Shown here piece by piece: positions 27,461 to 64,000 of a stretch of 64,000 nucleotides of DNA. The DNA is taken from positions 3,906,001 through 3,970,000 of the forward strand of contig OW203771.1 in NCBI GenBank assembly GCA_934045905.1. Reading direction: 5' to 3'. Under the pieces are notes generated by a model that was not told where the DNA came from, did not search any database, and saw nothing but the letters and a program-made list of their open reading frames with translations. Each line of letters starts with the position of its first letter. The first letter of the stretch is position 1. The stretch is from Leuctra nigra (Eukaryota; Arthropoda; Insecta; Plecoptera; Leuctridae). A program made the position numbers and the translations under genes.

Positions 27461-30400
27461 ATCTAGTGGAGCGGTCGCTCCACCCAGCCAAGTCGTACTA
27501 TACACTCACACTCACTCAACATACCGTAAATGCCTAATAAACTGAGGAGCAGACGAAACACTTTTACTGTAAGCAACAACATGGCATTTTCGGCCTACTG
27601 GATCTCAAAATTGGGAAATCTCACATTGTTGCGAAATAACTTAATTTCGAGCTATGGCCCACCTGACAACATATACCAAATTTGGGAACAATACGTTATG
27701 CCGTTTGGGTGCTAGAGGGCCGTGAAAACAGTGAAATTACACCCCTTTTAAAAGCTATCTGATGATGATGATTCAGATATCAGGAAACGTTGCTATCACC
27801 GCCACAGCCTAAACGGCTGAACCGATCAACCTGAAATTTTTACCACATATGCACTTTTGGCGTCTGATGATACCTTGCCTCTTGTGATTTTTTGTGCCGC
27901 CATTTTTAAACCGGAAGTGACGTCATATCTCAAAAACGTCTGGACCGATTAGAACGAAATTAGCGCCATTCGATTTAGACGGTCATCTATATGAAGTATC
28001 AATAAAAAAAATATTATTTTCTTATTTTCTGAACCGGAAGTGACGTCATAAATACGCAATATTTAACTTATTTCAACAAATTATACTTAAAATACATACA
28101 TAAGTAACTTACATTGTAACATAGACAATACAAATTATAAATTCAAGGAGGCAGTGTTCTCGGCCGCCATTCCTGAAACCGGAAGTGACGTAATATATCT
28201 AAAACGCCTGTACCGTTTGCAACTGAACTAGCTCCTGCGTATTCATTCTGCAACTTTTTTTGAAACTCAATTGTGAAAAATGAATAAACAAATTAACGGT
28301 ACCGGAAATGGCGGCAGGAACCACTAAATGAAACCGGTAGTGACGTCATATATTACATACGGCAAGACCGATTTTACGGAAATATAGGGATTATGAATTC
28401 AGATGGTCGTTCATAAAGTATCAACTAGATTGTTTTCCTATTACCTATACCGGAAATGACGTCATAAATATGATAATTGACACAAAATTCACCACTTTAT
28501 ACTTTTAAATAGATATTTAGTAAACCTACTTTGTAAATAATTATAAATTCAAGGTTGCAGTGTTCTCGGCCGCCATTTTTAAAACCGGAAGTGACGTCAT
28601 ATATTGAAAACAGCTGTACCGATTGCAACCAAATTTTGGAAATGTGTAGGACTAATAATTATGAATTGAAGACGACATTATTTTCGGCCGCCATTGTTAA
28701 AACCGGAAGTGACATCATATATCGAAAACGGCTGTACCGATTGCAACCAAATTTTGGAAATATGGAGGACTAATAATTATGAATGAAATACGACATTATT
28801 TTCGGCCGCCATTGTTAAAACCGGAAGTGACGTCATATATCGAAAACGGCTGTACCGATTGCAACCAAATTTTGGAAATATGTAGGAATTATAATTATGG
28901 ATTAAAGGCGACATTATTTTTGGCCGCCATTGTAAAAACCGGAAGTAACGTCATATATCAAAAACGGCTGTACCGATAGCAACCAAATTTTGGAAATGTG
29001 TAGGACTTATAATTATGAATTAAAGACGACATTATTTTCGGCCGCCATTGTTAAAACCGGAAGTGACGTCATATGTCGAAATCGTCTGTACCGATTGCAA
29101 CCAAATTTTGGAAATATGGAGGACTAAAAATTATGAATTAAAGACGACATTATTTTCGGCCGTCATTGTTAAAACCGGAAGGGACGTCATATATCGAAAA
29201 CGTCTGTACCGATTGCAACCAAATTTTGGAAATATGTAGGACTTATAATTATGGATAAAAAGACGACATTATTTTCGGCCGCCATTGGTTAAACCGGAAG
29301 TGACGTCATATATCGAAATCGTCTGTACCGATTGCAACCAAATTGTGCAATTATGTAGGACTTATAATTATGAATTCAAGACGACATTATTTTCGGCCGC
29401 TATTTCAAAACCGGAAGTGACGTCATATATCGAAAACGGCTGGATCGATTATAACGAAACTTAAGCTATTCTTCTTGGATAATCATTTTCATCTTATACC
29501 AAACGCAACTTTTCTTAGTAAGCAAATCGGTTGAGGCGTATTTTTTTAAAGAAATTAGTCCCTGCTCGGACATGTGCTACAAGCTGTATGAATAAACTAA
29601 CAAAAGAAGTGATATCCCAGAAAAAAACACTCCGTGTAAAAAAGGCAGCCAAGTCTCTTTACTTTAAAAAAATTCAACACCGAAAAGGAGTGATATCAAA
29701 AAAGGAGCCAAGTCAATGACATTTCCAAATATTTAATCGTATTTTTGAAATAAAAGAATAAACACCGAGAAATACTTTACAAAAGGACTTGGCGCATCGT
29801 TTTTTAAATTCATTTTTTGATTCATAAGCATATGCCATTGATATACAACCGTAATTTAGAATTTTTAGAATAATAGGGAAACATCTTTCAATTACATATT
29901 ATACATATACCTACTGTAAAATATTATCTATTAGAATATGTACGTACGCGATAAAACTTGTTGCCTATGTTTTCTATAAATACACAATAGTTAGTTATCT
30001 TCGTAATATTGTTTCGTGGTCAACATAATTAAGTCTCATGCGTTAAACCTTCTCATCATGAAATACATTTCTATTAATCCACATTTTATAACAAAACATT
30101 TCACAAAGTACATAGTCACATTGAATTTCTATTAAAAATTTTAACTTTATACACTTGACACTTCAAAAATATATAATAGTGTTCCAAAGACAGTTCGTAA
30201 TTATTTGACAACGTTTCATGATTTCCTTCAGTCAAGATCAAATTATGAAAAGATACCCTTCTAATATCACCATATTAACAGTGCTATAAGAATATGTATG
30301 AGCCCACTTCCAATTGTTATTTAATTCTTCCACCCTTATATTACTTATCTATTACAGCATGAAATCTTTCTACTATCGCCATTGACAAAACTATAAAATA

Positions 30401-31151: not shown

Positions 31152-34100
31152 CTACTTGACACAGTGAACAAGCATCGTGTAGTAGGAATAAGCTTTTCGC
31201 AATACCTGAAACATAGACATTTTCTAATATCAACTTTTAAACTAGATCTATTGGTTTGCGCAAGCTAAAATGTATATCAGTCCATATAGGTTCTCGACCG
31301 ATTTGTCTGAAAGTTTGTGAAATCTGATGAAACTTTGGTCCAAATTACCATGTAAAATTAAACTTGATCAAAACATTTTTAATTTTTGACCAATAGGAAA
31401 ATTTTTTTTTCAATTTTAATAAACCCAATTAGGTTATATTTCTAAAAATTTGAAAACCAATGAACAACTTATGTTCATGCAAAATATAAGTTTGATCAGA
31501 AGTATTAAAGACCATTTTGATTTTTCAAACAGTCAGGATTATATATTTTAATTTTACCAATTAACGGAGTTTCAAAAAAATAGGGCATTTAGGCCCCGAA
31601 ATAGAAAAGGTGGTCTTTACATGTTCAAAATTTCAGATCGATCGGTGTAACCATGTGACCTGTGTATCGGTTAGTAACTCAAATAAGGTCCGTGTCAAAA
31701 GAGTTAAAAGGAGTATCTCGCTTCGCTCGCTCAATAATTTTGTGAAAACAATCAGTAAAAATTACATACGATGTCGTAAGTCAACATTGTGACCGGCAAA
31801 TATCCAGCCGCTTTGAAGACAAAAGGCTGATTGGATTTCGATATGATGATCCTGATTGACTTCTTGAAGCTCTCAGACGCTTCCAACCAATCACAGTCGT
31901 AGGCTGCTTCCTTGACCAGGCCGCTCTGAAAACATTCCAAAGTCATTGAGTGACTGAAGAGAAGAAACTGATTCATTGTGATGTGAAGACTATCTGGGGA
32001 ACCGGGGCTTGAACCCTGGACATCTCACTTATCGCTCAAGAGTTCACATCACACTGGGGCCGTATTATGGAACGTTTAAATTCCCAATTCTGATGGAATC
32101 TGATTCGGTGCAATGTTAATCCTTATGGCCGTGACCGGATTCCATCAGAATGGAATTGGGAAAACGTTCTAGAATAGGCCTCCTTGTAAGCGTTCTTAGA
32201 AATCCGAGGAAAATGGAATCAATTATAGTAAAATTATTTTCTCGCTAATTACCAAACCTATTGTTCTTAAATTTGGTATATGGGGTGGGGTGGGCCATAG
32301 CTCGAAATTAATATATTTCGCAACAACATGAGATTTTCCAATTTTAAGATCCAGTAGGATCTTTACTGAATTCACTGAATTCTACAATGAATTTACTGAA
32401 TTCTACAAGAAATGAAGAAGATTGCAAAGAAGAAGATATAAATAGAAAAGTGGAGACAGTTATAGCAGGAGGAAGAAGAGCACGAATAAAAGTACAAGAT
32501 GATGAGGATGATGGAAATGAGTTTGTAAACTTAATTTTGGATGATGATGATGATGAAGAAGGAGAAGAAAAAGAAGAAGAAGAAGAAGAAGAAGAAGAAG
32601 AAGAAGAAGAAGAAGAAGAAGAAGAAGAAGAAGAAGAAGAGAATCCCATTATGAGAGGCGAAGTTGAAATAGCAATAAAATCAATGAAGAATGGAAAAGC
32701 TCCTGGAGTTGATAAACTCACAGCTGAGATGTTAAAGGCAGCAGGAGATCTGGGAGTTGATTGGATGTTCAGAATTGTAAGTGCAGCTTGGAGTCAAAAA
32801 AAGGTACCAGAGGACTGGACGAAAAGTTTAATCTCAATTCTCTTTAAAAAAGGGAATAGAAAGGACTGTCAAAATTATAGAGGCATATCTTTAATGAGCC
32901 ACGCTGCCAAAATCTATGAAAAGATATTAGAAATGAGAATAAGATGTTTATTGGAAAATAAACTGAGCGAAGAGCAATATGGTTTTCGGCGTGGTAGGTC
33001 CACCACTGATTTAATCTTTGCTTTAAGAATGATTATGGAGAACACATGGGAAGAAGATAATCCAATGTACATGACTTTTCTTGACATAGAAAAGGCATTT
33101 GATCACCTACCTAGAGAAAAAGTATGGGAATCACTCAGAAAAAAGGGAATTCCAAAAGGCCTTATTAGCAGAATTCAAAGCTTATATATAAATTGCATGA
33201 GTTGCGTACAAACTAGTGCTGGAAACACCAATTGGTTTTCAGTGAACTCAGGTGTTCGTCAAGGAAGTGTTCTTTCGCCAATATTGTTCGTGACAGTAAT
33301 GGATGAAATGTTCAGGACAGTGGAAAATGGAAATAGAGAAGATTCACTAACCATGATGTTTGCTGATGATGTTATGGTGTGGGGAATGAACGCTGAGGAA
33401 GTACAGACGAAGGTTGACAAGTGGAAGATGGTAACGGAGGAGTTTGGAATGTCAGTAAGTAGAAAGAAAAGTGAATCAGTCATCATGCAGAGAGGGCAAA
33501 AGTCGAAGAAAAAGAACATGGATGTAGTATGTTTAGGTAATCAAGAAATTGAAATTAATAATACATTTAAATACTTAGGAAGCACAATTACTGAAGATGC
33601 AAAAATTGCAGTAGAAGTAAATCGAAGAGTACAATTGGCGTCGAAATTTTATCAACAATTTCGAAAATTATTATGGAATGAAGATTTTCCCGAAAAAATC
33701 AAAATATTATTATACAAGCTCTATTACGTTCCTATTCTTACATATGGTGCAATAACTTGGTCGATGGGATGGAGGGAAGAGTCAATGATGCAAGCCGCAG
33801 AAATGAAATTTCTGAGGAGTATTGTTGGTGTCACAAGAATGGACAGGTTGAGGAATAGCATTGTGAGAAAGAAGTTAGGTGTGGAAAGTTTACTATTTAA
33901 AATTGGAAGAGAGAGGTTGAAGTGGTATGGAAAGATGAGGAAAATGGACATGAAAAGAATCCCCCGTATGGCGTTTGAAAGGACAAGAGTCATCAGAAAG
34001 AGACGTGTGGGACGGCCCAGAGACAGATGGGAGGAGCAAATACGAGGTGATTTGATGGCAAGAGGAGTGGAAAACTATGAGATTGTGGAGCAGGAGCGAT

Positions 34101-37100
34101 GGTGGGAAGATGATGAGAGATGGAGTGCATTGGTGGAGAGAAGAGAGGAGGAGGAAGAAGAAGAGGAGGAAGAAGATTAAAAAATACGTTATGAGTGGCG
34201 ACTTACGTATTATAAATTGCCTATAAATAAATTGTATTACTTACCTGCTAATTTTAGTCGAAAGTTAAACAATAAAGATGTTATTAAGATCCAGTAGGCC
34301 GAAAATGCCATGTTGTTGCTTACAGTAAAAGTGTTTGGTCTGCTCCTCAGTTTATTAGGCATTTATCCTGTATGTTGAGTGACTGTGAGTGTACTGTACG
34401 ACTTGGCTGGGTGGAGCGACCGCTCCACTAGATAAACCCAATTCCCGTCACACCGGTCTGGTAGCCAAGTTGGTAGCGCTCTCGCTCGTCTAAGTGAGAA
34501 ATCCCGGATTCCAGCTGCGGATTGGTCAGATATGTCTCACAATTTATTATCATCCTCATTCCTGATTCCCCTTGAAGTTGTTGATAAAACTCGCAAGGTT
34601 TTACCTGTTCAGAGATGCCTTCAGTGAGTCGACATAATATCCAGAGAATGAGGAGAAGGACGAATAAATCTAAGATACTCGATTTCATGCTGTTGCCACT
34701 TAATGGCACCTGAAAGTGGGAACATAAGTATTATGTTTTTAGTATCTTCAAAACTCCGCAGGTAATTGAAAGTTATATTCAAATAACTGTAACTTCCAAG
34801 ACGCAATAGAATGGACTAATGCATTTTGATTTATTTATGTACATATTTTTTGTTTTAAATAGCATTTATAATGAAGCAAACATTCACTTAAAATTTTGAT
34901 TAAATAGTGAATTATGAGGATTTATGTTTTTGACCCACCATAGGTCTCTTCTGACTCCACGGTGAAGATATAAAATGTTTTTCGTGTATGCTAAGGAACA
35001 TGACTGCTAAATTTTGTGCATCTATCATACCTATTTTATGGTATTATTATGGCATTGACGGAAACCATAATTGAATAAAAAAACATATATTTAGGCCCAT
35101 TAACCTCCTTACCCGAACAAATTGGTTTAAATGATTGTAATTACCACTCGCATGACATTTATATTAATTTAAAAAGAGAAATAATGAAATATCAAAAGAT
35201 ATACGAATTTTGTAATTTGACTCAAATTGACCCCAAAATTACCATAATGTGGAATTCAAGGAAAATTTGTTATTTTTTAAGTTACTTATATATAGGCAAT
35301 TATCGTTAAGCAAACGTTCACTTAAAACGTTAAATCGGTAATTAATTACTAATTAATCAGTAATTAATTATTTTCCGTCGCCATTAGCCTCGCTGCAGAT
35401 CAGTGCGACGTTAAGCCCCAGACAAAAAAAGTAATTAATTATGAAGATTTATGTAATTTGACCGCCAGAGGTCACCACTGACTCCATGGGCAAAATCTCG
35501 AATAATATCATAGCCAAATCGATTTTATATGTCCTAAGGAACATCTTCACCAAATTTCATGCTTTTATCACAAAATGCAAAATCATTCCTCTTAGCTAGG
35601 AACCATAAGTATAGTAGCTGTACTTGCTAAATTTGCCTCGGTGGATGATATCGTACTTTGTTTCTTTTTTGAGCCAGACAATTACTTACCATGGTGTTAT
35701 ACATTGCAGATATGACAAATGGTATCAAACAGACGAAGAAAACTGTGAGAAAATATGTGGAGGTCACGCCATTTATTTCGTTGCAAACCCTGAAACATAT
35801 TTATAAAACAGCTGTTTGTTCTCACTTCATAAGCATAATAAAGCTAAAGCTACTCATCTACTCAGAATAATTCCTTGAAAAAGCATTACATCGAAATCCC
35901 AATAAACCGTTGGAAAGAATGAAACGGGATACTTTGATATATAACGATTCCACATAATATAGAGTAAGACCTGGTTGTAAAATGTTCGGATAAAGATAAC
36001 GGTAGGATTTATCGGTTGAAACTTTTGCAACAGCCAATGAAACACAATGAAACACAATGACACGCAGAGTCTAAAATGTTAACTTTGTCTTCATTATCAT
36101 ATTCAATCATCAATATGATTGATGGTTATTTCTTAATTCCCACCTCAGTAGCTCCTGGTGCATCTTGATGCAGTTCTTGAGGCGCCATTGCATCTGGGAA
36201 TCAAGGTCATCGCCTGGAGCTCTGCGCCTGGACACCATGACGTCATCAAGTGGAACCGAGCTCTGAATCATGTCTTCCAAACTCTGCTTCGATGCGATCC
36301 TTGCAGTGTCATCAGGAGTTGATCCTTGCTTCTCATCCACTTCCTCGTAGACAGCTCCTGGTACTTTGAGCTCAAGGTCTTGTCTAATGATCTCGCTCCT
36401 CTTGTTTACTCGTACAGGACTGATCTTCTCTCCGAACACAAGGTCAGAGATCCGCTCAGATGCTTCTACTTGTGACGTGTTGCGCAGAGCGGCTTCACTG
36501 TGAGCTCGGATGTTGCGCAGCTGGTACTGCAGGATGCGGAAGTGCACCTCGGTGTATATCAGTGTTGTTATGTAAAACACTGATATTGTCAACAACGTTG
36601 GGAATAGAGCAGTTACAACTAGCCCTTGCGCAATGACGGTTATGTGAAGATAAGGAGTTGCTGACACATCGTATGGATACCAACCGCTGAAATAATTTGT
36701 CAGTTGTAATTACATTGAACATATAGGAGCTATAAATGAGAGCTGGAGGGCGGAGAGGGTGTGTATCGATTACTTGCGCGAATAGAGGATCAATCTGATA
36801 AAATCTAAGTAAAAATGATGTTGCTAGAATAAAACAATCTTACTTAGCAAGCGTTGTCCTCGAAGAAATTAAAACTCCACACAAGATTACGTTTCCAACA
36901 GCATAAGCAACTAGTATACATGTTGGGATCAATGCTAGAATGTCAGTGATTCTCTTGACTTTGAGAAGTTCTCCTCTCTCATAATCATCTTGTTGTTGAT
37001 GAATCCGCTCAAATCTTTCCAAAAGAGCTTCAGACTCCCTCATATGTAGAAGATAGTTCAATATAACAACAAACACTGCTGTGGAAACGGTTGATTTGTA

Positions 37101-49719: not shown

Positions 49720-52677
49720 TTAGGTGACACATTCATCGAGGCCTGCAGATAGATATTCTTTGGTTGAGTACGGGGACATTTCACACAAGTATGTTTTGAG
49801 GTAGCTTTTGAATTGCACTGTTTTACTTTTAATCTTGATTTGGGAGGGTAGATGATTGAATAATATAATACTGGATAGTGCTGGGTTTTGTTTGGACAAG
49901 GATAAGCTGTGGTGTGGAATATGGAAATCTTTACTATTTCTTGTTTCATGGCTATGTATGTTGCTGTTTAAGGGATGGATGTCTGAGTTGTTTATTGCAT
50001 AAATGATGGAATTATAGATGTATAAGGCAGGGACTGTAAGGATTTTGAGGGATCTGAAAATTGGTCTGCAAGTCGTTCGGCAGGATACTCCAACTATCGC
50101 CCGTGCAATTCTCTTTTGGATTATAAGTATTCTTCTTGCGTTGTGTGAGTTTCCCCAGAAGATGATGCCGTATGACATCCTTGCTTGGACGAGTCCGAAA
50201 TAAGTCATTAGTAGGGTTTCTCTTGTAACTTTCAAACGGAGGTTTCGCATTAGGTAAGGAAATGACGATATTTTCTTGCATATTGTATCTACATGGGCGG
50301 ACCAATTTAGTGATGGAGAGATTGTGATTCCGAGGAAACGAATCTCATTGACCTCGGCGAGACTTTTATTCTTGATTTTGATGAGGAGACTTCTATCTTG
50401 CGGGCGCTGGGCTGTATGGAAATTGATAAAAGCAGATTTGGTGTTGTTAATAATCAGGCCGGCTTCCTTGGAAAATTCTACCATATTGTGTACGGCCATG
50501 TTCGCTTTCACTGTCGCCGATTCCAAGTTATCCGCAGTGAGGAGATGACTCGTGTCATCTGCGTAGATGGCAACTGTCCCTTCTCCTAGTCTTGATGGTA
50601 AGTTGTTCACGTAAATGATGTATAATAACGGGCCTAGCACCGTCCCCTGTGGTACACCGATGTGTACTGTCCTCATGTCCGATCTCACCTTATCCTGTCC
50701 TTCTGTGATCACTTCCACACACTGTTGGCGGTGTGAGAGAAATGAGTTTATCCAATTCAGGACAACGCCATTTATGCCCATTTGTTTCAGGATGCGTTCT
50801 AGGGTTTTGTGGTTCATACTATCGAACGCCTTAGTCATGTCGTAAAACAATCCTACGGCCGAACGCTTATTATCCAATGCTTTGTAAATTGAGTTGATAA
50901 ATGAGTCTATTGCTTGAATTGTTGATTTACCCTGTTGAAACCCGTATTGTTGTGGAGATATTAACTTCTGACCATTTAGGAATGTCATGAGTCGTCGGCT
51001 TAATGCTATTTCGAATACCTTCGAGAAAGCTGATGTTAGAGAGATGGGTCTGTAGTTCCCGGGTTGGGATCGGTCGCCCTTCTTGAAGATTGGTATCACT
51101 TTTGCGGTTTTAAGAGTGGATGGGAAAATGCCTTCAGCAAATGATGAGTTGATGACTTCAGCTAGGGGTTGACATATGTAAGCTGCACATTTTTTGAGTA
51201 TGATTGGGGGGACATCGTCCATTCCAGCTGACTGCTTGATGCATTTCGTATGTAGGATGTTCCAGATTTCTGCAGAATCCACCGGGAAAAGGAACATTTG
51301 CTTGGCGCAGTGAGTACTTGGGTTTGCTGGTGATGGTTGGGTAGCTCCATACTCTGTGATAAGTTGTGGTACGAAATCACAGAAATAATTGTTCATAATA
51401 TTAGCACAGACTTTCTCATCATTACAGGGGGCTGAGTCTACTGTGAGGGTCAGTTTGTGTCGCGGAGTCTCAGGTCTCGATAAGTTCTTGATGACGTTCC
51501 ATGCACCAGCATGCTTGTTACTCGCCTTGGCAATGATGTTGTCGTTGTGAGCGCGTTTGGCTTGTGTTACTTTATTAGCATGAATCTTTTTCTGCTTCCT
51601 GTAATTCTCCTTGGCATCATCGTTATTTAAGTACAATGTGTCAGAATATAGTTTCTTCAGTGCTAATGAGGAGTTCACAATGTCTTGGGTAATCCATCTT
51701 GGCTTTTTCGCTTTGGTTTGTTTTACATGGGTAGATTTTATAGGGAACGCTGTATTAAAAGCATGCATGAAACATCCAGAGAAATCTTGAAATTTTTGCT
51801 CGGCAGTTGATGCAGCATACACTGTATACCAGGATGCTTGCCCAAGGAGGTATTTTGCATATTGTATTTGACTGTCTGAGAATGTTCTTCTTGATACTCT
51901 CGTAGCTGTCTTCTTTTCCTTCATCTCGATACCATTAGAATCTTCGAGTGTTAGTAATTGTCCGTTATGGTCTGAGAAGTGGATGACAATTGATTTAGAT
52001 GTCAATTTGTCTGAGGCAGTGTTTGTAAATATGTTGTCTATGGTGTTGCCAGTGCCATTTCTTATTCTGGTTGGGTTAGTTACAGTCAGGAAGAGGTTGA
52101 ATGATGCAGTTATTGAGAGGAGATTTGCGAACCCCGGAGATGATCGGCCTTTAGACATGTCACTGTTTGTATTGATATTGAAATCACCCGCGAGAAATAT
52201 GTCTACGCTTCCTCCAAATTTATTTACTATTATTTCTAGAGCAATTTCAAGTTGTTCGAAAAATATTTCTAGATCGCCGTCCGGTGAACGATACACAGAT
52301 ATGAAAACTGCAGCTGGTTCCGAGCTCGTTTGTTGCACAATAGCACAGCATTCAAAGTTTTTTTCAACACTAAGTTTTGAGATTTCTGGGATGTCCTTTA
52401 TGTTAGATCCAATCAAAGTTTTGACTATGATTGCCACTCCGCCTCCATGCTGTCTTAATCTACAGAAATTACTGGCGATTGTATAATTGGTGATGCAGGT
52501 GACGGTGCACTCCTCTGGCGAGAGCCAATGCTCTGATAAGCATACTATATCTGGGGATAATTCATGCAGCACAATCTCGAGGTCAGGTACCTTGTTACGG
52601 ATACTACGAATGTTGAATTGAAATAAGGATCGCGTATTTGGGATTTTCAGTTTTGGAATCTCGTCAGATTTACACAT
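49720..52677 (-). CDS. Element A ORF2: endonuclease and reverse transcriptase
   Basis: 985 aa. The N-terminal apurinic-type endonuclease (about 14-240) keeps the expected residues: N22 in FNIRS, E49 in LSEHW, Y129 in VYRSPDGD, D165/N167 in GDFN, and S235-D236-H237 in SDHN. The reverse transcriptase domain lies at about 480-770: GNYRPISLTSAFSKV, QYGFQQGKST, YDMTKAFDSMNH, IGVPQGTVLGP and the catalytic YADD at 705-708. The C-terminal region has the motifs usual for jockey/CR1-type elements. The enzyme nicks target DNA and primes cDNA synthesis on it. Its first ATG is the third codon after the ORF1 stop and lies in the same frame as ORF1. The exact clade is unresolved. Confidence 0.93.
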   Translation of the reverse strand: MCKSDEIPKLKIPNTRSLFQFNIRSIRNKVPDLEIVLHELSPDIVCLSEHWLSPEECTVTCITNYTIASNFCRLRQHGGGVAIIVKTLIGSNIKDIPEISKLSVEKNFECCAIVQQTSSEPAAVFISVYRSPDGDLEIFFEQLEIALEIIVNKFGGSVDIFLAGDFNINTNSDMSKGRSSPGFANLLSITASFNLFLTVTNPTRIRNGTGNTIDNIFTNTASDKLTSKSIVIHFSDHNGQLLTLEDSNGIEMKEKKTATRVSRRTFSDSQIQYAKYLLGQASWYTVYAASTAEQKFQDFSGCFMHAFNTAFPIKSTHVKQTKAKKPRWITQDIVNSSLALKKLYSDTLYLNNDDAKENYRKQKKIHANKVTQAKRAHNDNIIAKASNKHAGAWNVIKNLSRPETPRHKLTLTVDSAPCNDEKVCANIMNNYFCDFVPQLITEYGATQPSPANPSTHCAKQMFLFPVDSAEIWNILHTKCIKQSAGMDDVPPIILKKCAAYICQPLAEVINSSFAEGIFPSTLKTAKVIPIFKKGDRSQPGNYRPISLTSAFSKVFEIALSRRLMTFLNGQKLISPQQYGFQQGKSTIQAIDSFINSIYKALDNKRSAVGLFYDMTKAFDSMNHKTLERILKQMGINGVVLNWINSFLSHRQQCVEVITEGQDKVRSDMRTVHIGVPQGTVLGPLLYIIYVNNLPSRLGEGTVAIYADDTSHLLTADNLESATVKANMAVHNMVEFSKEAGLIINNTKSAFINFHTAQRPQDRSLLIKIKNKSLAEVNEIRFLGITISPSLNWSAHVDTICKKISSFPYLMRNLRLKVTRETLLMTYFGLVQARMSYGIIFWGNSHNARRILIIQKRIARAIVGVSCRTTCRPIFRSLKILTVPALYIYNSIIYAINNSDIHPLNSNIHSHETRNSKDFHIPHHSLSLSKQNPALSSIILFNHLPSQIKIKSKTVQFKSYLKTYLCEMSPYSTKEYLSAGLDECVT

Positions 52678-52683
52678 TGATTG

Positions 52684-53883
52684 CTATGCGTAGGAAATCC
52701 TACTCTTAAGAATGGAGATCATTTTTTGTTTTACTGGGCAAATATTATCTCTGGCATCATGATAACAATCCACCTTGTCACCTGATCTGTCACAGTTTAC
52801 ACACTTGGGGTGCCGAGCGTTGCATGTCTTTTCCTCGTGGTTACAGGCACAATATAAACAAGTTTTATTCTTGGTGCAATTTTTTGCCATGTGATTGTAC
52901 CCCGCGCATTTGTAACATTGAGTCACATTGAGATGGTCATATAACTTTAGTCGACGCCAGCCAATGTTTATCTGACCTTCTTTCAATAACAATGTTCGCG
53001 AGTGAGCATCGGCTTCAATTACTACTGATGAACTGGTTTTGTGATTCAGGGCTGTGACGAATTTCAATGCAAACCCAGGGGCTGATTTGTCTAAGCTGTT
53101 TTGTATTGCTATAGAGTGAAGAAATTCTTCTTCATTCATATCCTCTAGTGAAAAGTTCATTATTCGCAGCCTTGGATTCATTTTCGGTTTTATTTCTGTG
53201 GAATATTTGTCGCCTAATAGATTTTGAACTTCTTTGACAAGAGTGTCAGTCGATGATTCTGCGCACGTGATGTGCACTGCCCCCTGCTTGTCATGGTGCA
53301 AGCTGTAAACTCCTACTGCTAGTTTGGCTGGATCTATATTTTTAGTTATATCTAACTTTGTATTTAAGTTGTCATCGGGGTTCTTCGGTTTTATGCTAAT
53401 TGTCCCTTTCTTTTCGCTTCTTACTGCTGTGGAGTATGATTTAGCTTTCATGTTATTCAGTTGAGAGAGCGGTGGAGGGGGAGAACAGAAACTAAATGAT
53501 TCCAGCGACCTAATTTTGTCTGCTTGAAGTTTATTTTCTGCCTCTAAACTTCTTACTAGTCTCTGAAGGATATTATTTTCACGAATTAGCATAACGAACT
53601 TTTCCTGATTGTTAAGCGCTAGACCAACCTGAGGAAATTCACTCGTCGAGTCGTCGGCGCCGCCCCCTTCGTTGTTTACGTCCGGTCGATTCTTGCTGAC
53701 AGCTGATGTATCCCCTTTTAGAGCACTGAAATTACTTGCTGCGGATTTCAATCTGCCGACAAGTTGTTCTTTTCTTCCTGTACTGTCCATTCCTAGCTTT
53801 TTAAGTTCTTCCTGCAGTTCTTTTACTTTGAAATCGTTAAAATTGAGGAGCTCTACTTCACCGACCTTTTCACTATCCGCCAT
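52684..53883 (-). CDS. Element A ORF1: SAP-domain, CCHC nucleic-acid-binding protein
   Basis: 399 aa. A SAP-like helix-extended-loop-helix lies at about 16-50 (FKVKELQEELKKLGMD, GRKEQLVGRL). A coiled coil follows at about 98-130. A middle domain ends in INIGWRRLKLYDHLNVTQC. Zinc knuckles are C323-C326-H331-C336 (CX2CX4HX4C), C342-C345-H349-C354 and a third cluster from C361. Such proteins package the element RNA. The middle and zinc region is homologous to ORF1 of element B, but the N-terminal domain is not. Start context is CAAGATGGCG, identical in both elements. Ends GCA-TAG, followed by CAA-TCA-ATG in frame. Confidence 0.9.
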   Translation of the reverse strand: MADSEKVGEVELLNFNDFKVKELQEELKKLGMDSTGRKEQLVGRLKSAASNFSALKGDTSAVSKNRPDVNNEGGGADDSTSEFPQVGLALNNQEKFVMLIRENNILQRLVRSLEAENKLQADKIRSLESFSFCSPPPPLSQLNNMKAKSYSTAVRSEKKGTISIKPKNPDDNLNTKLDITKNIDPAKLAVGVYSLHHDKQGAVHITCAESSTDTLVKEVQNLLGDKYSTEIKPKMNPRLRIMNFSLEDMNEEEFLHSIAIQNSLDKSAPGFALKFVTALNHKTSSSVVIEADAHSRTLLLKEGQINIGWRRLKLYDHLNVTQCYKCAGYNHMAKNCTKNKTCLYCACNHEEKTCNARHPKCVNCDRSGDKVDCYHDARDNICPVKQKMISILKSRISYA

Positions 53884-53994
53884 CTTGATCGCGGAAGGAA
53901 TGGAATGGAAAAAGGAATGGAATGGAATGGAAAAAGGAATGGATCTAGTTGTGTTGGATATCCTTCATTTACTTAAAATGTATACTTAATTAAT

Positions 53995-59500: not shown

Positions 59501-59802
59501 GTCAAAATAAAAATATAAGACAAGAGTTTCACTGGTTTTCTTTATCAAAGCAATATTTCATCAAAATCAGATAAAAAATATGACAACTTTCAGAAGTTTA
59601 TATTCATTGAATTTGTCTTGTTCCGAACTCTTGAGAGACGTTATTTTTCTCGACAGGAATGAAAGGAAAGAATTGATTTATCTTTCACGTTCTTCTCAGT
59701 GAGTGGTGATGCACGTGCGTTGAATTGCATCATAAACAATTGCATTGCAGCCCATCCCAATGTGCTCCGTCTGAACTGCTCCGTCAAAAAAACCTACCCA
59801 AG

Positions 59803-61050
59803 ATGGCGTCGCGTGATGAAGAAGCGGACGAACACTCCGCAATAAATTCTATTTATAAGTGTAACAAGTGCAATAAAAAGGTTAAAGTAGGCATTCAATG
59901 TATCAGTTGTAGTGAAAGAATACATGTGAAATGCGCGAATATCATCATCCACAAAAAAGGTACTGTAAATTCAGTTGATAATATTGTCTGGACCTGCCGC
60001 GAATGTGACGCTGAGAGATTGAGGTTAGCGTCCATGCTAATGCTGCCAGTAGACGATGACCTCGAGCTGCCCGTGCAACCTGTCATCACAGAGCTGAGTG
60101 TACAGATCAATATGTTAAAAAGAGAGAACGCACTTCTCCTCCGTCTGGTGTCAAGCTTAACACGCGAATCCAACACTAAAGACGCGACTATCAAATCACT
60201 AAATGAAATTGTCAAGCAAAATTCCTCAAGTACTGAGCAAAGCCGCGACCAAGCTGAACCAAGAAAATCATATAGCCAGGCTGTTAAAAGAGCGGAAGTA
60301 ATAATCGTCAAACCCAAGAACCAAAGCCAAACAAGTAAGACGACAAGAAGTGATGTAGAAAATGCCATCAATCCGTCAACACTGGCCCAACCAATCGGTG
60401 TTGTCAACGTCAAAAACATTTCAAATGGAGGCCTTGTGATTGGCTGTTCAAATGCTAAATCTGTTGCCGTTATGAAAAATTCAGTGGAATTAGCTCTAGG
60501 TGAGAAATATGAAGTAAAAATTCCAGATAGACTAAAACCCAGGTTAAAGATCATTGGCGTCACCTACGTGCACGAGACGAATGATCAGCTGATCGATGTC
60601 ATTACTAAACAAAACGACCTACAAACAGGAAGTCCTATCTTCCATTTTCGCATCATCAAAGAGATACAAAACAAAACCGGGTCTACTGTCATAATAGAGA
60701 CTGATCAACAAACTCGTTTATCCCTGTTGAAGGAGGGGTGGGTAAATATCGGCTGGCAGAGATCGAAAGTGTACGACCACGTCCACGTGACGCAGTGTTT
60801 TTGTTGTTGGGGGTTTAACCACCTGGCGAAGGAATGCAAATACAAACAGGTGTGTTTATTCTGCGCGGGAGAACATCTAGCGAAGGAATGCAAGGCTGCT
60901 ACATATGAATGTATCAACTGCCTGAGCCTACACCCCACTTCGACACCTGAGCAGAGAAATCATTCCGCCAGTTATTGGAACTGCCCCGTACTAAAGGGTC
61001 GGCAGATCTCAAAGATGAAGAGAATTGAATATGAAGTTGGTGCAGCATAG
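59803..61050 (+). CDS. Element B ORF1: PHD-finger, CCHC nucleic-acid-binding protein
   Basis: 415 aa from the ATG at 59803; an upstream in-frame ATG at 59725 would add 26 residues. The 59803 start is preferred because its context CAAGATGGCG is shared with element A. Counting from 59725, a PHD-type C4HC3 finger uses C46, C49, C59, C62, H67, C70, C91 and C94. A coiled coil follows at about 120-155. The middle domain ends VNIGWQRSKVYDHVHVTQC, leading into zinc knuckles (CFCCWGFNHLAKEC, CLFCAGEHLAKEC and a third cluster). It probably packages element RNA. The PHD finger replaces the SAP domain of element A. Ends GCA-TAG, followed by CAA-CTA-ATC. Confidence 0.9.
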   Translation: MASRDEEADEHSAINSIYKCNKCNKKVKVGIQCISCSERIHVKCANIIIHKKGTVNSVDNIVWTCRECDAERLRLASMLMLPVDDDLELPVQPVITELSVQINMLKRENALLLRLVSSLTRESNTKDATIKSLNEIVKQNSSSTEQSRDQAEPRKSYSQAVKRAEVIIVKPKNQSQTSKTTRSDVENAINPSTLAQPIGVVNVKNISNGGLVIGCSNAKSVAVMKNSVELALGEKYEVKIPDRLKPRLKIIGVTYVHETNDQLIDVITKQNDLQTGSPIFHFRIIKEIQNKTGSTVIIETDQQTRLSLLKEGWVNIGWQRSKVYDHVHVTQCFCCWGFNHLAKECKYKQVCLFCAGEHLAKECKAATYECINCLSLHPTSTPEQRNHSASYWNCPVLKGRQISKMKRIEYEVGAA

Positions 61051-64000
61051 CAACTAATCTCATTAGATGGTGTAGTTGGTCCCAACAAGTTACTCCAGCA
61101 TACGGAACTCAACACCAAGACTCCATCACGACCGCATCATCGTGTAGTGCACGGAAACATCCAATGTTTGAGACACAAACTCCCCACCCTTCAATTGGCC
61201 CTTCAAGATCTCGCACCAGATGCCATCTGTCTGTCCGAGCATTGGCTGGCTGAAGAAGAACTGGGCAGCGCTTACTTAGCAGGTTACCAAATCGCCAGCT
61301 CTTTCTGCAGATCAGTCTTCATTCACGGAGGTGTGATCATCTACACTAAATCCAACCTTGCTTCTACTGACGTCACCGCCGCCCATACACTTAATGTCGA
61401 GAAACATTTCGAATCGGCAACTATCCTACTTGACACCCATGATGGAAGAAATGCAATTGCTTGCGTCTACAGGCCCCCGGGTGGTGATATTGACATATTT
61501 CTTAAGAATACGCACTGCCTGCTAGAAATAATTTCTTCTAAAAAGCCATCCAGTATTTTCCTATGTGGGGATTTCAATGTAAATTTCATGGAAGATAGTC
61601 GAATCAAAGACAAGCTGGAGGACTTGCTACTATCACACAACCTCCGTGAAATGGTGAAGGATCCAACGCGTGTCACAGCAACGTCTTGTACTAGAATTGA
61701 CAACATATTCACGAATATCAGGGGTGGTAGCAATGCTCGCTGTTATGTGTTCGACCCGGAACTCTCTGACCACCTGTTTCAAGCATTAACAATAGAATTA
61801 TTACCCCCCGCTACAGAGACTTTAGAAAACGAATCAAGAAGCTTCAAAAAGTGTCAGATTGAGTCCTTCATACTCGGGATCAGCGAAGTCACGTGGGACG
61901 CCGTCTACTCGAAAGCGTCGCTGGACGACAAATACGATGAGTTCCTACGCACGTTCCTTAGAGTGTTCAACGACGTATTTCCAAAAAAGAAGATGAAACT
62001 TAATAGAAATCATAATAAACCAAATAATCCATGGTTCACCCAAGAGTTTCGCGACATGTCCCTGTCTGTAAAGAAGTCCTACCGTGCTACGAGAAGACCA
62101 GGTCATTCAGCTGAGGACAAGATCAACTATATTTCCCTTAAACGAACTTTCATGAAGATGATAACGGAGGCGAAAAAAGCTACCAACGATTTAACTTTAC
62201 AATCATCATCAAACAAAGCAAAGACTGCCTGGAGTATTGTAAATTCTAATCACTACGGTAAAAGCCATCGTTCTAACGTAGATATTCGACTTGAAGAAGG
62301 TGAAGAATTAATAACCTCGCAACAGGAAATAGCATCTCGTCTTAATAATCACTTCAAAAACGCAGCAGTGAAAATGCTTGAGTCGCGGGAAGCCATTACT
62401 CGACCATCCCCACCCCAATACCCAGTCTCCACTAGCCAGAATATCATATTTTTATATCCTTTGACACCTAAGGAATACTACTCAATCATTGAAAAAATAG
62501 GGTCTAAGACTTCAGCAGGTATTGATGAAATTCCTTGTTTCCTCGTCAAATATGCGGCACCCTTCATCATGGAACCACTTATTCACATAATAAATCACTC
62601 GTTCGAACAAGGATCCTTCCCTACATGTCTCAAAACTGCCAAGATAATTCCTGTCTTCAAATCCGGGGAGCGAATGAAAATTGAAAATTACAGGCCTATC
62701 GCTCTTTTATCAGTCTTCTCTAAACTCCTCGAATCGGCCTTCTGTCTAAGACTTTTGTCTTTCCTCAATAAATTTTTGCTTCTTAATACAAATCAACACG
62801 GTTTCATGAAAGGAAGGTCAACTATAACCGCTCTCGCCAGCTTCATAGACGACATTCTTCAATCTCTTGATAATAACAAAGGCACCGTTGGCATATTCTA
62901 CGACTTCAGCAAAGCTTTCGACAGTGTCAATCACACACTCTTACTCCACAAACTCAACCTACTGGGAATTCGCGGAGTCGCCAACGATTGGATCAGATCT
63001 TACCTGTCGGACAGAGAGCAAAGAGTGTTCATATCGGGCAAGACCACTTCACACCTCTCGGACGGACTTACAACAAATGTCGGAATGCCGCAAGGGTCAA
63101 TAATTTCTCCGTATTTATTCATCCTCTTCACCAATGACCTTCCCGGAATTATAACAGCAGGAACTTTGACACTGTTCGCCGACGACACGAATCAGCTGAT
63201 CTCGACGGACACAAAGTATCTCGGCGACTTATCAAATGAGGCAGCACAGCAGATCGAGGCGTGGAGTAATGATAACTACATGATCTTAAATAAAAAGAAA
63301 ACAGTATTTATGCAATTCAATACAAAATGGAAGAAGAAAGAAGAAAGTCTACTCATTCGGCTAGAAGGTACCAGCATCGCGGAGGCAGAGACAACGAAGT
63401 TCTTGGGAGTCCAGCTCAACGAAACACTAGACTGGAGCAACCATATTCAAATGATCAGTGCACGTGTCGCCTCAGGTTGCTTCTTGATAAGAAAACTAAT
63501 GGACATAACAAATATCAGCACCATAAAGATGGTATATTTCTCATTTATCCAATCTCACTTAAATTACGGTATTATATTATGGGGCCATTCTTCTGGAGCT
63601 AAGAGACTTTTTACTTTACAAAAAAGGACCCTGCGGTACATGGCAAGAGCCAGCTTCAATCCTTGCGCTGACATTTATTTTAAAGACTCATGCAAACCCC
63701 TTTTTAAGCGTTTTAACATCCTGACTCTTCCTAGCCTTTATATTTTTAATTGTATTATGTTTGTTGTAGGCAATGACAAGAGATCTCCTGTAAATGCATT
63801 TGACCATCAATATGCAACAAGACACAAAGAGGACTTCAAACTTTTAAAACATAAACTTGCACTGTACGAGAAAAGTCCAACCTATCAAGGGTCTAAATTT
63901 TATAATGCTCTACCTCAACATTTAAAAGATAAAAATGGAGTTGATTTTAAAATGTCCTTAAAGTTGTTTTTAATTAGCTCTTGTTTTTATTCATTCAATG
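61051..64000 (+). CDS. Element B ORF2: endonuclease and reverse transcriptase, 3' end beyond window, no usable ATG
   Basis: 983 codons without a stop, beginning directly after the ORF1 TAG and in its frame. The endonuclease keeps its active-site residues: GNIQ (61153), LSEHW (about 61234), VYRPPGGD, CGDFN (about 61567) and LSDH (61762-61773). Reverse transcriptase motifs are ENYRPIALLSVFSKL, QHGFMKGRST, YDFSKAFDSVNH, MPQGSIISP and FADD at 63175-63186. The first in-frame ATG is at 61588, already past the GDFN catalytic motif, so a normal start would give a broken endonuclease. Translation therefore most likely comes from readthrough of the TAG. The C-terminus lies outside the window. Confidence 0.9.

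Follow-up and report, generated by a model that had tools for sequence, protein, structure and literature searches.

A LINE in the plecopteran Leuctra nigra raises the question of how ribosomes reach an open reading frame that lies behind a stop codon and offers no early start codon of its own. The retrotransposon, element B, is a long interspersed nuclear element (LINE) at the end of a 64,000-nucleotide (nt) stretch of contig OW203771.1 (assembly GCA_934045905.1, positions 3,906,001 to 3,970,000, forward strand; hereafter the window, in whose positions coordinates are given). On the + strand, its first open reading frame (ORF1), a UAG, CAA-CUA and a second open reading frame (ORF2) follow one another in a single frame. 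The best explanation is readthrough of the UAG, which would yield a minor ORF1-ORF2 fusion; this mechanism, put forward in an earlier sequence-only reading of the locus and supported here by genomic copies, related families and AUG-poor junctions, has in our estimate a probability of about 0.88. Its support at the sequence level consists of the in-frame junction, the conserved UAG-CARYYA, the constraint on both sides of the stop and the families without a usable AUG; readthrough itself, its rate, the inserted residue and the fusion as an active enzyme are what we infer from these. How ORF2 is expressed from the RNA of two-ORF LINEs is treated as an open question, answered mostly by reinitiation or unconventional initiation, in the review PMC5972666.

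An in-frame UAG-CAACTA junction joins the two ORFs of element B

The layout of element B in the window is as follows.

59799-59802, + strand: CAAG, the apparent 5' end of the element; the alignments of longer copies begin nearby and the flanks diverge just upstream
59803-61047, + strand: ORF1, 415 codons from the first in-frame ATG at 59803, by reading-frame analysis
61048-61050, + strand: UAG ending ORF1, the proposed readthrough stop, kept in 16/16 B copies covering the junction
61051-61056, + strand: CAACTA (CAA, 61051-61053; CTA, 61054-61056), the CARYYA hexamer, fitting at all six positions
61051-64000, + strand: ORF2, in the ORF1 frame, open for 983 codons to 63999; its end lies outside the window
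61156-61158, + strand: codon AAC in the NIQC motif, predicted endonuclease catalytic Asn from its motif position (putative role)
61237-61239, + strand: codon GAG in the SEHW motif, predicted endonuclease catalytic Glu (putative role; E63 is invariant in an alignment of 27 sequences)
61588-61590, + strand: first in-frame ATG past the UAG, ORF2 codon 180, beyond the predicted Asn and Glu

UAG followed by CARYYA is called the tobamovirus-type, or type I, readthrough context. The sequence-only reading had ORF1 ending in GCA TAG CAA CTA with the same frame open onward, CAACTA fitting CARYYA at six of six positions, and the first ORF2 ATG lying past the catalytic residues of the endonuclease, all of which we recovered. 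Going by the predicted residues, the ATG at 61588 is too late for a complete endonuclease. ORF2 matches Pfam Exo_endo_phos, an apurinic/apyrimidinic endonuclease (APE)-type domain (E 1.9e-9, about 61189-61773), and the reverse transcriptase domain RVT_1 (E 1.5e-34, about 62680-63417). ORF1 has CCHC zinc knuckles at its C-terminus (about 60796-60891) and a C1/PHD-like Cys-rich N-terminus, whose match to Pfam C1_1 (E 0.00045) falls below the curated cut-off.

The window stops just short of the end of ORF2, since in other copies elsewhere in the genome ORF2 runs to codon 988 and a terminal TAG. This bears on the idea that the organism reads UAG as sense, which would make ORF1 and ORF2 one. Such a codon would be scattered through the frames, and the idea is therefore contradicted: frames of 400-1000 codons contain a single UAG each, and in the other copies it is a UAG that terminates ORF2 of element B. 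We consider its probability negligible.

A second LINE in the window, element A, lies on the - strand and shows about 36% identity to element B over ORF2 and the matched part of ORF1; the ORF1s of the two are homologous, and both elements are APE-type LINEs. The junction reads GCA-TAG-CAA-TCA in element A, compared with GCA-TAG-CAA-CTA in element B.

52687-53883, - strand: ORF1 of element A, 399 codons; N-terminus unlike that of B, C-terminal half with zinc knuckles common to both
52684-52686, - strand: UAG stop of ORF1
52678-52683, - strand: CAATCA, the CARYYA hexamer, followed by ATG
49723-52683, - strand: ORF2, 987 codons in the ORF1 frame, with TAA at 49720-49722 and an (ATT)n tail downstream

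The junction is preserved in copies and families across the genome

Searches of the L. nigra genome covered an assembly of 536 megabases in 144 contigs. A probe of 401 bases spanning the B junction matched at 17 places, which are spread over several contigs and in several cases 5'-truncated. TAG-CAA-CTA is kept in all 16 copies that cover the junction, the 17th match (L087) beginning 3' of it. Fifteen of these copies, the window's own included, match the window copy at 99.6-100% identity; the remaining one, L085, is 95% identical and keeps TAG-CAA-CTA, and its ORF2 frame is broken after codon 252.

Relatives in the same genome, whose evidence weighs most here, were sought with a distant ORF1 protein (P0001), which gave at least 131 matches. 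We read 74 of these (the 50 highest-ranked and 24 picked by score group) and five further places from the B probe, 79 distinct places in all. A readable junction was found at 73 of them, with TAG followed by CAA or CAG in 73/73, the full CARYYA in 65/73 and a frame open for at least 100 codons past the stop in 69/73. Because this count relied on ORF1-end peptides from junctions already seen, the six places that it missed were inspected individually: L087 is truncated; L143, L151 and L157 lack an ORF2 downstream of ORF1; in L152 a stop comes earlier, yet TAG-CAATCA is still present; and in L097, a copy of family A, the stop has gone through an in-frame deletion that leaves ORF1 and ORF2 fused. 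The L097 fusion is that of a single family A copy and not the rule of its family. The preservation of TAG and CARYYA that the sequence-only reading had expected of genomic copies is thus found in these counts; a sense codon or frameshift in most copies, which it had named as telling against readthrough, is not, the stop being lost in L097 only.

The 73 junctions were sorted into 13 LINE families, a grouping made in this analysis, whose endonucleases are 15-47% identical between families with the sole exception of G and K (69%). An in-frame UAG-CAR junction is present in 13/13 families and the full CARYYA in 11/13, with the following hexamers.

Families A to G: A CAATCA, B CAACTA, C CAATTA, D CAATTA, E CAAACA, F CAATTA, G CAACTA
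Families H to M: H CAATCA, I CAATTA, J CAACTA, K CAGCTA, L CAATCA, M CAGATG

Decay is seen among copies, L085, L107, L140 and L152 carrying other lesions, and could lend some credit to the notion that a random nonsense mutation in a dead copy, or else an error in the assembly, produced the UAG. The retention of UAG in 16/16 junction-covering B copies and in 13/13 families speaks against this, and we give it next to no weight.

Dispersed copies, 5' truncation and A/T-rich simple-repeat tails, all hallmarks of LINEs, are present, the tail being (AAAACT/AAAACTA)n-like after ORF2 in element B and (ATT)n in family F. A word search for target-site duplications of at least 7 nt, shorter ones not being sought, found none in 5 B and 6 F copies. 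In families A, B, C, D and F, copies are alike only from about CAAG before the ORF1 ATG (CAAGATGGC; window 59799-59812 on the + strand and 53878-53887 on the - strand, L090, L093, L105 and L132), and the 5' leader is therefore put at ~4 nt; L102 departs from CAAG at the ORF1 start. The ORF1 start codon sits in what we take to be a YY1/TISU-like motif.

Stop and hexamer stand out from their surroundings, and both ORFs appear constrained

Across representatives of the 13 families, the columns of the stop and hexamer carry 0.70-2.58 bits, compared with a flank mean of 0.28. In-frame CARYYA codon pairs make up 22 of 8876 elsewhere in the frames of the families, versus 11 of 13 at the junction, and in a control set of terminal ORF2 stops (A, B, E, F and L024, an element from outside this genome described below) CARYYA follows in 0/5. 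On these frequencies, CARYYA at the junction is more than chance. In the 11 families that conform, codon +2 reads CTA, TTA or TCA, so that the residue varies between Leu and Ser on an unchanged base pattern; YYA accounts for one third of the Leu and Ser codons in the families.

Selection on both sides of the stop, likewise anticipated by the sequence-only reading, was assessed from nonsynonymous (dN) and synonymous (dS) change. For ORF2, families H and M give a dN/dS of 0.18 over 176 endonuclease codons, and families G and K a dN of 0.21 over 127 endonuclease codons, with synonymous sites saturated (proportion of synonymous differences, pS, 0.77). For ORF1, the last 85 codons of B copies L118 and L085 give a dN/dS of 0.35. 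Four wider pairs were also compared, of which three showed saturated synonymous change and the fourth was that of H and M. Protein change thus appears constrained on both sides of the stop in the comparisons made, which for ORF2 comprise short endonuclease parts only. Type I contexts work through their primary sequence. Folds of 120 nt from the stop showed no unusual RNA structure on its 3' side in 10/10 cases (z -0.24 to 1.50), a result that neither helps nor excludes CARYYA-type readthrough.

Start codons available to ORF2

Between the stop and the predicted catalytic Asn, six of the 13 families (B, C, E, G, J and L) lack any in-frame ATG, as do L024 and a D-like copy, L109. J and L024 are free of ATG in every frame over the interval that begins 60 nt ahead of the stop and ends at the predicted Asn. 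An ORF1 stop that overlaps or closely adjoins the ORF2 AUG, as in the LINE SART1, is not seen in B and five other families. Because six of 13 families have no in-frame ATG before the Asn, about half of the families would have readthrough as their one simple way to reach ORF2 without an AUG.

In the readthrough mechanism, ribosomes would initiate on the ORF1 AUG, which lies close to the very 5' end of the RNA, and most would halt at the UAG and release the ORF1 protein. A minority would place a near-cognate tRNA on the UAG in its UAG-CAR-YYA context and then continue, making a fusion of ORF1 and ORF2 that carries both endonuclease and reverse transcriptase and would be analogous to retroviral Gag-Pol.

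Several points weigh against this reading. The hexamers of families E (CAAACA) and M (CAGATG) deviate from CARYYA, and hexamer column +7 (0.70 bits) is less conserved than flank columns -7 (1.06) and +11 (0.78). The 13 families are not independent trials, owing to common ancestry or an exchanged ORF1/junction module, and P values computed for the junction, which presuppose independence, are not to be read at face value. ORF2 of L118 and L085, compared ungapped, gives a dN/dS of 0.88 with about half of the sites differing; we set this value aside as unusable because the pair has indels. Lastly, an in-frame ATG does follow the stop at codon 2 (M), 3 (A, F and K), 8 (I), 11 (H) and 28 (D).

The ATGs lying 3 nt (M) and 6 nt (A, F and K) past the stop favour a different route, in which termination at the UAG is followed by nearby reinitiation and a separate ORF2 protein results. 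Reinitiation has been published for other LINEs, a stop-start overlap being reported for SART1 and the process proposed for mammalian L1 (PMC5972666), and the first ORF2 ATG matters in Zorro3 (PMC1965478). It predicts, however, neither a conserved CARYYA, nor a conserved frame, nor UAG over other stops, and it is difficult to reconcile with the six families and L024 that have no in-frame AUG before the predicted Asn (in B the first comes at codon 180), let alone with the absence of AUG from every frame in J and L024. We therefore regard reinitiation as an improbable general explanation, and as a possible second route where an AUG directly follows the hexamer.

ORF2 could also be reached through a spliced or alternative transcript or a non-AUG start, for which element B has a GTG at 61147, just 5' of the HGNIQC motif. 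Neither process explains why 13 families should share one frame and one hexamer, and we judge this route very unlikely, more so than reinitiation.

In-frame junctions in LINEs from outside the genome

A profile of 27 ORF2s yielded 70 loci in prokaryote genome contigs, of which L001-L045 were surveyed. Many of these loci in metagenome-assembled genomes are evidently on eukaryotic LINE contigs, probably through binning contamination. ORF1, stop and ORF2 share one frame in 12 of the 45 surveyed loci: one has UAG-CARYYA, five have UGA-CUA or UGA-CUC, two are UGA-CAA near-duplicates and four have no recognised motif. An in-frame junction alone does not imply a readthrough motif, since these last four (L006, L012, L033 and L034) show none.

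The UAG-CARYYA locus is L024, from a soil TM6 bin, which combines an ORF1 of the same type with TAG-CAA-CTA and a partly masked in-frame ORF2 of 955 codons. UGA-CUA occurs in L010:1475, L022:1523, L023:1438 and L025:1088 and UGA-CUC in L018:1228, all from Poribacteria bins, with a PHD-like or other ORF1 and an in-frame ORF2 devoid of Met for 66-340 codons. Poribacteria are sponge symbionts, and these LINE contigs are probably sponge DNA. On their junctions, the five are candidates for a second readthrough lineage; counting against a readthrough role for UGA-CUA, ORF2 of L023 also ends in UGA-CUA (one of four loci with a visible ORF2 end). The near-identical pair L027:353 and L030:1230 has an in-frame UGA-CAA-ACC between ORF1 and ORF2.

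L006:416 and L012:292 are related LINEs with a CCHC ORF1, UAG-GA or UAG-GG and an in-frame ORF2; no readthrough motif was recognised in either, and the first ORF2 Met lies past an NAQS/NVQS motif.

Two ORF2-profile scans of viral contigs gave 107 and 223 pattern matches, with no relatives among them. In the protein database, a 10-sequence ORF1 profile had no matches and a two-sequence ORF1 profile found 4 proteins.

ORF2 phylogeny and module exchange

A quick tree of 53 ORF2s, built without reference elements, unites A with B, and E with F and L024, in two separate clades, each with a support of 100; E and L024 are among several rows of unequal composition, and there are long branches elsewhere. 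The UGA-CUA and UGA-CUC loci form a single clade, with L030 (UGA-CAA) as its sister. An ORF1 and junction common to two ORF2 clades could be ancestral or could have been exchanged as a module. L102 and L109 have near-identical ORF1 ends and first linker residues, with endonucleases only 41% identical, a pattern that suggests exchange between LINE lineages, as has been proposed for ORF1 of CR1/L2 LINEs (PMC4120745).

We also favour, with less assurance than for the L. nigra junctions themselves, a wider reading of these comparisons, in which readthrough would be a standing, ancient strategy of whole LINE lineages. It would operate through at least two virus-grade signals (UAG-CARYYA, and UGA-CUA or UGA-CUC in the sponge-associated-bin clade), with Gag-Pol-like fusions made at a set ratio and, in UAG-CARYYA families, RNAs starting a few bases before the ORF1 AUG.

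Relation to known systems

The L. nigra junctions resemble type I viral readthrough signals in their UAG, C at +4 and CAR-YYA, in the minor C-terminally extended product expected and in needing no 3' RNA structure as far as folding shows; they differ in lying between two LINE ORFs, in being known from sequence alone and in the deviation of 2/13 families. In human cells, CARYYA promotes readthrough of UAG or UGA, reaching about 15% with UGA in one engineered context, and UGA-CUA alone gives about 1.5% (PMC4132726).

Readthrough in a LINE was suggested earlier, from consensus sequences, for Group 3 of the Paramecium germline LINEs, in which ORF1 and ORF2 also share one frame; those are ciliate elements in a clade of their own, and the relevant parts of the paper name neither CARYYA nor a motif common to many families (PMC5405496). 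Moloney murine leukemia virus likewise makes a minor polymerase-bearing fusion, Gag-Pol, by in-frame UAG readthrough, but there a pseudoknot stimulates it (PMC5009743), whereas no stable fold was found at the LINE junctions. SART1 is also a two-ORF LINE with a coupled downstream ORF, through an overlapping stop and start (PMC5972666), unlike element B, which has no in-frame AUG near the stop. The CR1/L2 LINEs of the Jockey superfamily share with the present elements an APE endonuclease and reverse transcriptase, zinc-finger/PHD and CCHC modules in ORF1, and a reticulate ORF1 history (PMC4120745); this likeness is one of features, and the main text of that paper contains none of the terms 'readthrough', 'read-through' and 'stop codon'.

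For LINE ORF2, the portions of two reviews that deal with its expression give reinitiation and 2A (PMC5972666, PMC5009743), and a copia-like long terminal repeat element with an in-frame stop is explicitly described as lacking CARYYA (PMC3441728). The open-licence literature searched, which leaves most subscription papers and Repbase notes outside its scope, yielded no LINE with UAG-CARYYA or UGA-CUA; LINE machinery and viral readthrough signal are each known, and their combination was not found described there.

Other features of the window

A third, distant reverse-transcriptase ORF lies at 32348-34177 on the + strand, with 610 codons between stops and a long Glu run. It was considered as a further case and rejected, having only a 25% match to ORF2 of element B and no adjoining ORF1. 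A tandem array of about 7 copies with a 118-base period occupies 28419-29427. An Rfam scan of the window returned no matches.

Implications for LINE expression

If the readthrough mechanism is true, termination efficiency can set how much enzyme a LINE makes, and the enzyme at work may be a fusion of ORF1 and ORF2. Retrotransposition could then respond to host termination factors and to drugs that alter readthrough. Annotation pipelines that demand an AUG would miss the starts of such ORF2s. With a dozen intact, partly very recent families bearing a six-base signal known from plant viruses, the L. nigra LINEs offer a directly testable case.

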